Assembly: GCA_003285105.1 (NCBI GenBank) | Contig: CP030158.1 | Coordinates: forward strand, 4,388,449 to 4,452,448 | Length of the DNA stretch: 64,000 bases | Reading direction: 5' to 3' | DNA from: Roseithermus sacchariphilus | GTDB taxonomy: Bacteria > Bacteroidota > Rhodothermia > Rhodothermales > MEBIC09517 | Part shown: positions 60,190-64,000 of the stretch, piece by piece | Layout: every line of letters begins with the position of its first letter | How positions within the stretch are numbered: position 1 is the stretch's first letter | Notes under the pieces: generated by a model | What the model was told of the DNA's origin: nothing | Database searches by the model: none | Seen by the model: the letters and a program-made list of their open reading frames with translations, nothing else | Position numbers and translations under genes: made by a program

Positions 60190-60224
60190 AACGGCTCAGA
60201 CCTTCCCGTCTGGGCCGTTTTTTG
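60190..60224 (+). terminator. Terminator of tRNA-Ala
   Basis: 12-bp stem AACGGCTCAGAC (60190-60201) / GTCTGGGCCGTT (60208-60219), 6-nt loop, then a T-rich tail. Confidence 0.9.
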
Positions 60225-60254
60225 TTTTCCCCCGTCCCCACCTCCCCCCATCTC

Positions 60255-60566
60255 ATGGACCGACGCGACATCCCGGCCGCCCTGAAGCAGGCCCAGGAAC
60301 ACTTCGAAACACGCCTGCAGCAGGCCGTCGACGCCTACGAACACTGGACCGGCGGCCCGCTCGAGATTGACCTGAGCCTCGTCGAGGGCGAAGACCTGCC
60401 CATCGGCGATGAGGTGCTGCGCGACAAGGTCCGCTCCCTCGTCGACGCCTTCCACCGGGAACCCATCGTCCGAGAAACCGGCGTGCGCGTGCACAAGGTC
60501 ACCGCCTTCGATTCCGACGCCGACGGGACCGCCGCCGTCCGCGTCGTCTACGACTACCCGGCCTGA
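60255..60566 (+). CDS. Small hypothetical acidic protein
   Basis: A predicted 103-residue soluble protein with no recognised family. The N-terminal half is helical (IPAALKQAQEHFETRLQQAVDAYEHW), with a second amphipathic helix (DEVLRDKVRSLVDAFHREP) and a beta-rich end (GVRVHKVTAFDSDADGTAAVRVVYDYP). It is rich in Asp and Glu. ATG 60255 follows the tRNA terminator directly, so it needs its own promoter or read-through. A perfect 12-bp hairpin follows the gene (60590-60618). Codon use is in line with its neighbours. Confidence 0.6.
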   Translation: MDRRDIPAALKQAQEHFETRLQQAVDAYEHWTGGPLEIDLSLVEGEDLPIGDEVLRDKVRSLVDAFHREPIVRETGVRVHKVTAFDSDADGTAAVRVVYDYPA

Positions 60567-60589: not shown

Positions 60590-60618
60590 ACGCCCCGGGC
60601 GAGGACCGCCCGGGGCGT
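60590..60618 (+). terminator. Hairpin after the small hypothetical gene
   Basis: 12-bp perfect stem ACGCCCCGGGCG (60590-60601) / CGCCCGGGGCGT (60607-60618), 5-nt loop, followed by GTTGTG rather than a T tract. Confidence 0.6.
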
Positions 60619-60913: not shown

Positions 60914-60998
60914 CAGGATCGGCCCGGCGGCGAACTTTTCCGGGCCGGTAGTGGTTGGAACGACTACTTCGCCATGCACCATCCAGGCCCTCTACGCC

Positions 60999-61091
60999 AT
61001 GCGGTTCATCACGCGCTGCTGCTGTTGTTGCTGTCCCTGCTGTTGTACGGCAGGACCCGGGCAGAGACGTGGCCGTACCGCCCCCGCGTGA
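60999..61091 (+). CDS. Poly-cysteine leader peptide of the cysteine operon
   Basis: A 30-codon open frame, ATG 60999 to TGA 61089. It begins MRFITR, then six Cys codons (61017-61034), Pro, and three more Cys codons (61038-61046), followed by an Arg/Gly/Pro tail. It lies upstream of a cysteine synthase gene, with competing RNA helices and a T7 tract in between. It would serve as a sensor of cysteinyl-tRNA rather than a functional product. The same DNA in the frame starting at 60975 reads as poly-Leu. C/T variation is synonymous in both frames, so coding evidence alone does not decide. The genetic context favours the Cys frame. No Shine-Dalgarno site is seen, as is usual here. Confidence 0.7.
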   Translation: MRFITRCCCCCCPCCCTAGPGQRRGRTAPA

Positions 61092-61162
61092 CCCTCGCAT
61101 CGTAAGCGTCGCGCCTTCCCCCTGGCTACGCCTCTCCCGGTTCACCGAGAGAGGCTTTTTTT
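61045..61162 (+). promoter_or_regulatory. Attenuator: competing antiterminator and terminator helices
   Basis: Helix 1:2 is GTACGGC (61045-61051, starting inside the last Cys codon) with GCCGTAC (61072-61078). Its loop holds CCGGGCAGAGACG (61057-61069), which can pair with 61129-61140 (CGCCTCTCCCGG) with one bulge and one mismatch, forming an antiterminator. That same 3' segment forms the terminator GCCTCTC (61130-61136) / GAGAGGC (61149-61155) plus T7. Inferred logic: ribosomes stalled on Cys codons open helix 1:2, free the antiterminator strand and permit transcription. Confidence 0.7.
61130..61162 (+). terminator. Terminator of the cysteine leader (attenuator)
   Basis: 7-bp stem GCCTCTC / GAGAGGC with a 12-nt loop, followed by seven T (61156-61162), 36 bases before the cysM-like start codon. 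Confidence 0.82.
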
Positions 61163-61198: not shown

Positions 61199-62167
61199 AT
61201 GGAACTCCCCGCTTCCGCCGTCACGGACACGCTCCAGAGCGACGTGCTGGACCGCGACATGCTGGACCATGACGTGCTGGACCGCATCGGGCAGACGCCG
61301 CTGATCCGCCTGCGGCGTGTGATCGACCACCTGCCGGACAGCGTGACCGTGTACGCCAAGGCCGAGCATCTGAACCCGGGCGGCTCGGTGAAGGACCGGC
61401 CCGCGCTGTCGATGATCCGGGCCGGCCTGGCCTCCGGCGCGCTGCGGCCGGGCAAGACCCTGATCGACGCCACGAGCGGCAACACGGGGATCGCCTACGC
61501 CATGATCGGCGCGGCCCTGGGGCTGCCCGTGACGCTGGTCATGCCGGCCAACGCCTCCCGCGAACGCAAGCTGATCCTGCAGGCCTACGGCGCGGAGCTG
61601 ATCCTGACCGACGCCATGGAAGGCACCGACGGCGCACAACGGCACGTCCGCGCCCTGGTCGCCGCCGACCCCACGCGCTATTTCTACCCCGACCAGTACA
61701 ACAACGATGCGAACTGGCGCGCCCACTTCCACGGCACCGGCCCCGAGATCCTGGACCAGACCGACGGGCGCATCACCCACTTCGTGGCGGCGCTGGGCAC
61801 GAGCGGCACGTTCACCGGCGTCACGCGGCGACTGAAGGCCCACGACCCGGCCATCCGGTGCATCAGCGTGCAACCGGCCTCGCCGCTCCACGGGCTGGAA
61901 GGCATGAAGCACATGGAGACGGCCATCGTCCCGGGGATCTACGACCCCGATCTGCCCGATGCCACGCTGCGTATCACCACGGAAGACGCCCATGCCATGA
62001 CTCGACGCCTGGCTCGCGAGGAAGGCCTGCTCGTCGGCCCCTCGTCCGGGGCCAACGTCGCCGCGGCCGTGCAGGTGGCCGAAGAACTGGAAGCCGGCGT
62101 CGTCGTCACCATCCTGTGCGACACGGGGATGCGCTACCTGAGTGACGACTTCTGGAAAGCCGATTGA
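61199..62167 (+). CDS. cysM: CysM-like cysteine synthase (PLP-dependent)
   Basis: A 322-residue fold-type II PLP enzyme. The PLP lysine is Lys65 in NPGGSVKDRPA; the phosphate loop follows in SGNTGIAYA, with GTSGTFTGVTRRLK and the C-terminal GPSSGANVAAAV. Cysteine synthases add a sulfur nucleophile to the aminoacrylate of an activated serine. The neighbours are a JAMM peptidase, a ThiS/MoaD-like carrier and a MoeB-rhodanese protein, as in the mycobacterial CysM-CysO-Mec route. The sulfur donor is therefore probably a carrier thiocarboxylate and the acceptor possibly O-phosphoserine. That assignment is contextual. The N-terminus carries about 24 extra Asp/Leu-rich residues. It is first in its operon, behind the attenuator. 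Confidence 0.9.
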   Translation: MELPASAVTDTLQSDVLDRDMLDHDVLDRIGQTPLIRLRRVIDHLPDSVTVYAKAEHLNPGGSVKDRPALSMIRAGLASGALRPGKTLIDATSGNTGIAYAMIGAALGLPVTLVMPANASRERKLILQAYGAELILTDAMEGTDGAQRHVRALVAADPTRYFYPDQYNNDANWRAHFHGTGPEILDQTDGRITHFVAALGTSGTFTGVTRRLKAHDPAIRCISVQPASPLHGLEGMKHMETAIVPGIYDPDLPDATLRITTEDAHAMTRRLAREEGLLVGPSSGANVAAAVQVAEELEAGVVVTILCDTGMRYLSDDFWKAD

Positions 62168-62187: not shown

Positions 62188-62628
62188 ATGTACATCGCGC
62201 CCGACCTGCTCGACGCCATCCGCGCCCACGGGGCCGAGACGTACCCCGAGGAATGCTGCGGCTTCCTCCTGGGCCGCCCGACGGCCCGGGGCAACCACGT
62301 CCTGGCCCTCCGCCCCGTGCCCAACCGGCAGGCGGACCACCGCGAACGGCGCTACACGATCACTCCGGCCGATTACCAGGCGGCCGACCGGGCGGCCCGG
62401 CAGCAGGGGCTGGACGTCGTCGGCTTCTACCATTCCCACCCGGACCACCCCGCCCGCCCCTCGGCGACGGACCTGGCCGAGGCCACGTTTCCGGGCTATA
62501 CCTATGTCATCGTGTCCATCCTCCAGGGTATCCCGGACGCGCTGACGGCCTGGTCGCTCGCCCCCGATCGGTCGCGCTTCGACGCCGAACCCATCTCCCT
62601 CACCGAACCCGAACCCTCCACCCGCTGA
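62188..62628 (+). CDS. JAMM/MPN metallopeptidase (Mec+-like)
   Basis: A 146-residue zinc isopeptidase. The JAMM motif is complete: Glu21/Glu22 in YPEECCGFLLG, His82 and His84 in YHSHPDHPARPS, and Asp95 in PSATD. In the CysO pathway this enzyme releases cysteine from the carrier C-terminus; related JAMM proteins also trim residues that follow the carrier Gly-Gly. Here the next gene encodes a carrier ending Gly-Gly-Arg, so both activities could be needed. ATG 62188 starts 20 bases after the cysM-like stop, and the gene ends 5 bases before the carrier start. Confidence 0.92.
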   Translation: MYIAPDLLDAIRAHGAETYPEECCGFLLGRPTARGNHVLALRPVPNRQADHRERRYTITPADYQAADRAARQQGLDVVGFYHSHPDHPARPSATDLAEATFPGYTYVIVSILQGIPDALTAWSLAPDRSRFDAEPISLTEPEPSTR

Positions 62629-62633
62629 CACCC

Positions 62634-62930
62634 ATGCCTGCGACGTCCACCACCTCCGTGACGATTCACATTCCCACCCCCCTGCGCTCCTTCACCGGCG
62701 GCTCCGCCTCGGTCGAGGTGACGGGCCAGACCGTGGGGGAAGCGCTGAAGGACCTGGTCCGCCGCCATCCCGCGCTCGAACCGCACCTCTACACCGAGGA
62801 CGGACGCCTGCGCTCGTTCGTCAACATCTACGTGGGCGATGAGGACATCCGCTACCTCGACCGGGATGCCACCGCCATCACGCCCGGCGCGGAGCTCTCC
62901 ATCGTCCCGTCCATTGCCGGCGGTCGGTGA
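62634..62930 (+). CDS. ThiS/MoaD-family sulfur carrier (CysO-like) ending in Gly-Gly-Arg
   Basis: A 98-residue ubiquitin-fold carrier: VTIHIPTPLRSFTGG at the start, VGEALKDLVRRHPALEPHLY in the middle, and SFVNIYVGDEDIRYLDRDATAITPGAELSIVPSIAGG at the end, as in CysO. Carriers are adenylated and thiocarboxylated at a terminal Gly-Gly. Here one Arg codon (CGG) follows Gly-Gly before TGA, so maturation by proteolysis would be required, presumably by the JAMM enzyme encoded just upstream. It lies between the JAMM and MoeB-rhodanese genes, the expected activating and trimming partners. Confidence 0.92.
   Translation: MPATSTTSVTIHIPTPLRSFTGGSASVEVTGQTVGEALKDLVRRHPALEPHLYTEDGRLRSFVNIYVGDEDIRYLDRDATAITPGAELSIVPSIAGGR

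Positions 62931-62973: not shown

Positions 62974-64000
<1,027 letters not shown>

Follow-up and report, generated by a model that had tools for sequence, protein, structure and literature searches.

A predicted cysteine-sensing transcription attenuator ahead of a CysM-CysO-type operon in the Rhodothermales

Attenuators of the trp/his type combine a leader peptide carrying a run of the regulated residue with four alternately pairing RNA strands: strand 1 holds the control codons and protects strand 2 by pairing with it, strands 2 and 3 form the antiterminator, and strands 3 and 4 form an intrinsic terminator. Transcription attenuation of this kind with cysteine as the regulated residue has a predicted precedent. 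A terminator-type attenuator, uORFC-8-2, has been predicted before cysS in Rhodobacterales, where the Cys codons of an upstream open reading frame (ORF) are followed by an intrinsic terminator and Cys-tRNA sensing is predicted; this alphaproteobacterial element has two tandem Cys codons, mostly UGC and usually at positions 14-15, and precedes a tRNA-synthetase gene (PMC8632094).

Cys-codon leaders lacking terminators have been predicted in Actinobacteria, with Cys-codon runs preceding sulfur and cysteine operons in mycobacteria (PMC1262725). As far as the accounts in PMC9031893 (citing Canestrari 2020) and PMC13236596 go, the mycobacterial leaders act on translation. A different layer of control is described in Mycobacterium tuberculosis, where the sigma factor SigH directly controls mec-cysO-cysM and moeZ (PMC4803200).

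Here, we analyze a poly-Cys leader of Roseithermus sacchariphilus that shares the strand layout of the trp/his-type attenuators, located in a 64,000-nucleotide stretch of contig CP030158.1 (hereafter, the window). Computation across the order identifies a conserved Cys frame, a terminator, an antiterminator and a switch at the last Cys codon. We consider it very probable that the leader regulates a cysM-JAMM-cysO-moeZ operon by ribosome-mediated transcription attenuation in response to Cys-tRNA(Cys).

The leader frame and the operon it precedes

The leader peptide ORF (MRFITRCCCCCCPCCCTAGPGQRRGRTAPA, followed by a stop) occupies positions 60999..61091 on the forward strand, from the ATG at 60999 to the TGA at 61089-61091. 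Its 30 codons include nine Cys codons, at positions 7-12 and 14-16, exactly the CCCCCC-P-CCC frame reported in a preliminary description of this DNA. The control codons (TGC TGC TGT TGT TGC TGT CCC TGC TGT TGT; 61017..61046, forward strand) double as protector strand 1. The window contains a single run of six TGY codons, and 100 dinucleotide shuffles contain none. Elsewhere in the same genome, the five-codon TGY runs that were examined fall inside long open frames or overlap them, usually in a different frame or on the opposite strand, and no further Cys leader was found among them; nor was an obvious Cys run seen, by eye, upstream of the second cysK/cbs paralog. One run in this genome comprises 23 TGY codons (L156, C1:2708113-2708181), the opposite strand of which is a poly-Gln tract in a 1004-codon open frame. 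An Rfam search gave no match at the gathering threshold.

Four genes follow on the forward strand. The first, cysM (61199..62167), encodes a cysteine synthase, a pyridoxal phosphate (PLP) enzyme that matches PF00291 and scores above the cut-off for TIGR01136 (cysKM) and slightly below that for TIGR01138 (cysM). It is followed by a Mec+-like JAMM/Prok-JAB protease (62188..62628; PF14464, NF041370), a CysO-like sulfur-carrier, ubiquitin-like protein (62634..62930; PF02597 ThiS, NF041918 SAMP1) and the start of a MoeZ/ThiF adenylyltransferase (62974..64000; PF00899, NF005646/NF005902), the frame of which runs on past the end of the window, as seen in L179. These domain matches bear out the gene content of the CysM-CysO-JAMM-MoeZ operon proposed earlier, in the order cysM-JAMM-CysO-MoeZ.

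The comparison of this leader among relatives, which the preliminary description had suggested, covered 114 genomes of the order, in which 41 full-length cysM orthologs were identified (E < 1e-140). A short Cys-rich ORF lies directly upstream in 39 of the 41, spanning seven families and 18 genera, and all 39 of these operon-bearing loci keep both the Cys leader and a strong terminator. JAMM, CysO and MoeZ genes are found 3' of cysM in 38 of the 39; the last, L142, lies on a contig that stops after JAMM. The two orthologs without a leader lack JAMM, CysO and MoeZ downstream, which indicates that leader and operon occur together.

The leaders carry between 3 and 9 Cys codons in patterns such as CCCCCC, CCCAMCCC, CRCWCRCC, CFCTCSCCC and CCCPACCC. 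Four or more Cys within 10 codons are present in 34 of 39 leaders, compared with 0.010 per shuffled locus, and five or more in 26, compared with none in shuffled upstream regions; the 39 sequences share ancestry, so that these and the other counts over them are not independent.

The reading frame under selection could in principle be another one, such as that of the Leu-rich, signal-like peptide MHHPGPLRHAVHHALLLLLLSLLLYG, with poly-Cys a by-product of YTG repeats. The Leu frame of the window is likewise open and begins with ATG. Among the orthologs, however, the Cys frame has an ATG and a stop ahead of the terminator in 38 of 39 leaders, the remaining one beginning with GTG, whereas the two alternative frames do so in only 4/39 and 7/39; an alternative frame is interrupted by stops in three orthologs, and the interrupted patterns CRCWCRCC and CFCTCSCCC retain Cys rather than Leu. 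Loss of Cys codons with the Leu frame kept, a case named in the preliminary description as counting against it, is not borne out by these counts. With start and stop kept in the Cys frame and rarely in the others, we rejected the Leu-frame reading, to which we assign next to no probability.

Codon choice within the frame is unusual. The 39 leaders use TGT 157 times and TGC 43 times, opposite to the cysM genes (TGT 23, TGC 101; Fisher p 4e-27). The TGT bias could serve to sensitize decoding or to limit the strength of RNA pairing. It bears on the idea that the function resides in the peptide, as an arrest peptide or a thiol or metal sensor, the Cys codons not reporting tRNA charging. The extreme Cys content of the peptide and the resemblance of the candidate promoter (below) to thiol-stress sigma promoters would fit such a role; yet the residues flanking the Cys codons diverge and Cys spacing varies among the 39 leaders, unlike in arrest peptides, and preference for an unusual synonymous codon suggests that decoding matters. 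We regard a peptide effect as very unlikely and favor a role for the codons themselves.

Terminator, antiterminator and switch point

The intrinsic terminator of the window (61130..61162, forward strand) consists of a hairpin at 61130-61155, GCCTCTC-C-CGG-TTCA-CCG-A-GAGAGGC, followed by T7 at 61156-61162. Its free energy (dG) is -16.6, and its stem, 61130-61136/61149-61155, and T tract are those first described. A T-tailed hairpin (dG -12 to -23) lies between leader and gene in 39 of 39 loci, its first arm 25-42 nt (median 30) past the leader stop codon. Compensatory exchanges support the lower stem: pair 4 is TA, CG, GC or TG, and pair 7 is CG, TG, TA or GC across the leaders. Of the helices for which a covariation check had been suggested, the terminator stem shows compensatory changes, whereas helix 61045-61051/61072-61078 is not conserved.

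Intrinsic terminators are common, and a simple terminator scan left the hairpin 61130-61155 unlisted; it could therefore be asked whether it simply terminates a gene in the ordinary way, or is a 5' structure formed constitutively, independent of the leader. The upstream gene (60219-60566), however, is followed by a separate hairpin (60590-60618) that scores as a minus-strand terminator, the spacing between leader stop and terminator is constant, and complementarity to an antiterminator is found lineage-wide, so that we consider leader independence highly improbable. The upstream hairpin is itself strong and GC-rich.

Another view is that control is translational, as in mycobacteria, with a ribosome stalled on the poly-Cys ORF exposing a downstream ribosome-binding site. 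Such control is described for mycobacterial poly-Cys upstream ORFs, in so far as PMC9031893 and PMC13236596 relay it, and three class-level relatives (L195, L197, L198) have a leader ending in CCCCCCS and a stop before a cysM homolog, with no terminator in two of the three; these leaders possibly represent a translational version of the control. Against this view for the present locus stand the strong hairpin and T tract between leader and gene, present in the window as in each of the 39 orthologs, and the position of the window hairpin, which ends about 43 nt ahead of the cysM start rather than over it. We therefore deem translational control very unlikely here.

Antiterminator strand 2 (61053..61070) forms a duplex of dG -19.1 with strand 3 (61128..61143), which is also the 5' arm of the terminator, as duplex calculations and folds both indicate. 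The pairing initially identified, 61057-61069/61129-61140, is correct and forms part of this longer duplex, and because strand 3 serves both structures, antiterminator and terminator exclude each other, as was originally proposed. Taken alone, the window duplex is borderline compared with shuffles (-14.8; p 0.053). Across the 39 leaders, the mean z against dinucleotide shuffles is -2.27, with p<0.05 in 27 and no excess at that level in 12; in several (L007, L129, L133, L135, L136, L139, L141, L143, L144), the excess over shuffles is nil. Strand 2 is separated from the last Cys codon by a median of 6 nt (interquartile range 2.5-8.5).

The dependence of these structures on ribosome position was modeled by masking the RNA covered by the ribosome codon by codon, with a simple model of the footprint, and folding the transcript as far as the terminator loop. 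For A-site positions from eight codons to one codon ahead of the last Cys codon, sequestration of the terminator arm is 0.79-0.82, with 0.82 immediately ahead of it; the value is 0.71 at that codon, 0.29 two codons beyond it and 0.15 four codons beyond; in shuffled controls, it is flat at 0.45-0.51 across the same range. This step against a flat background places the switch point where the Cys run ends, in leaders of widely differing sequence. In the window, the minimum free energy fold pairs strand 3 with strand 2 when the A site is on codon 14 or 16, and with the 3' arm of the terminator when it is on codon 18 or 20, so that folding of the two states, proposed earlier as a check, yields the antiterminator and the terminator, respectively.

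When the full hairpin is included, the terminator of genus g3 (L002, L004-L006, L008, L009) has a probability of ~0 with the ribosome on the late Cys codons and ~0.9-1 past them. In many other lineages, full-length equilibrium folds favor the terminator even on Cys codons, implying that kinetics must matter.

Predicted pairing between strand 2 and the Cys-codon side exceeds that in shuffles (0.59 vs 0.43, Wilcoxon 9e-7, 39 leaders), and the predicted protector pairing of the window is 61033-61043/61047-61056. A different helix, 61045-61051/61072-61078, had been put forward initially: its sequences are complementary (GTACGGC/GCCGTAC), but its predicted probability is ~0. This enclosing helix was rejected as the protector, helices of this type also being rarer across the 39 leaders than in shuffles (mean 1.24 vs 1.69).

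A ribosome at the leader stop would cover neither the terminator nor strand 2. In folds that end before the 3' arm of the terminator, the antiterminator has a probability of 0.67 without a ribosome and 0.60 with one at the stop, default-state folds differing by whether that arm is included. The off state may be held by the ribosome over strand 2, by steric blocking or by 1:2 pairing.

Candidate promoter and proposed mechanism

A candidate extracytoplasmic function (ECF)-type promoter, GAAC-N18-GTT (GAACTTTTCCGGGCCGGTAGTGGTT; 60932..60956, forward strand), lies upstream of the leader and resembles the SigH/sigma-R consensus GGAAYR-N17-18-GTT (PMC4803200). The match to SigH is partial, the -35 element of the window being CGAAC rather than GGAAC. 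Of the 39 leaders, 19 have the motif GAAC-N16-19-GTT ahead of the Cys codons, compared with a shuffled mean of 2.07 and a maximum of 5 (60 shuffles).

We infer a promoter, translation of the leader, sensing of charged tRNA, a direction of regulation and a means of holding the off state once the ribosome is at or past the stop. The leader RNA would start upstream of 60999 and be translated. When charged Cys-tRNA is scarce, the ribosome would stall on the UGC/UGU run and disrupt the pairing of the Cys codons with strand 2 (61053-61070); the freed strand could then pair with strand 3 (61128-61143), blocking the terminator and allowing transcription of the operon. When Cys-tRNA is ample, the ribosome would pass the last Cys codon and cover strand 2 while the terminator is synthesized, the terminator would form, and transcription would stop at the T tract; behind the passing ribosome, the Cys-codon strand could recapture strand 2. 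The enzymes would thus probably be made only when charged cysteine tRNA is short. The Cys-codon-dependent attenuation envisaged in the preliminary description gains support from the leader and terminator in 39/39 loci, the compensatory changes in terminator stems, the antiterminator excess in 27/39 and the switch at the last Cys codon.

Farther out in the phylum, L181 and L183 have a Cys leader and terminator before cysM, as judged by eye and a simple scan. On the same basis, cysM is sporadically preceded by a Cys-rich leader and a T-rich hairpin in the Chloroflexota metagenome-assembled genomes L052 and L065 and in the class relatives L220 and L222. The Chloroflexota leaders are possibly of independent origin. 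We tentatively raise the possibility of a two-layer switch, in which a SigH/sigma-R-like thiol-stress promoter gates the leader and the Cys-tRNA attenuator gates the operon, with terminator-type Cys attenuators being a general and repeatedly evolved form of cysM control. Such general, repeated use is suggested by what appear to be terminator-type Cys attenuators in certain Chloroflexota and elsewhere in the phylum of Roseithermus.

Comparison with described systems

Several hallmarks of trp/his-type attenuators are reproduced computationally at this locus: a leader ORF, a conserved terminator, an antiterminator sharing an arm with it, a stall-dependent switch and a protector. Apart from the amino acid, here Cys, and the operon, here of the CysM-CysO type, the main difference is that the stop lies ~30 nt past the antiterminator strand, so that a ribosome at the stop would leave that strand uncovered.

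The combination was initially thought to be undescribed. This holds in part: a terminator-type Cys attenuator had already been predicted for cysS in Rhodobacterales (PMC8632094), whereas control of a CysO operon in this way looks undescribed in this lineage. Unlike uORFC-8-2, with its cysS gene and two tandem Cys codons, the present leaders have 3-9 Cys codons, of which most are UGU, and precede a biosynthesis operon that begins with cysM. Within the literature searched, the operon, the lineage and the strength of the poly-Cys signal look new.

The operon of M. tuberculosis likewise comprises CysM, CysO and the JAMM protease, with MoeZ as a further shared component, and the two may share a SigH-like promoter; for M. 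tuberculosis, however, PMC4803200 describes control by a sigma factor, and there moeZ is at a separate locus and the gene order is different. CysO sulfur-carrier cysteine biosynthesis would join the operons under ribosome-mediated attenuation; its leader signal, of up to nine Cys codons, is unusually strong and conserved lineage-wide, and the 39 natural variants form a ready set for relating control-codon position to the switch point. Finally, the poly-Cys leaders of mycobacteria lack conserved terminators, whereas here both terminator and antiterminator are conserved, the former in 39 of 39 loci, suggesting that bacterial Cys leaders come in transcriptional and translational versions.
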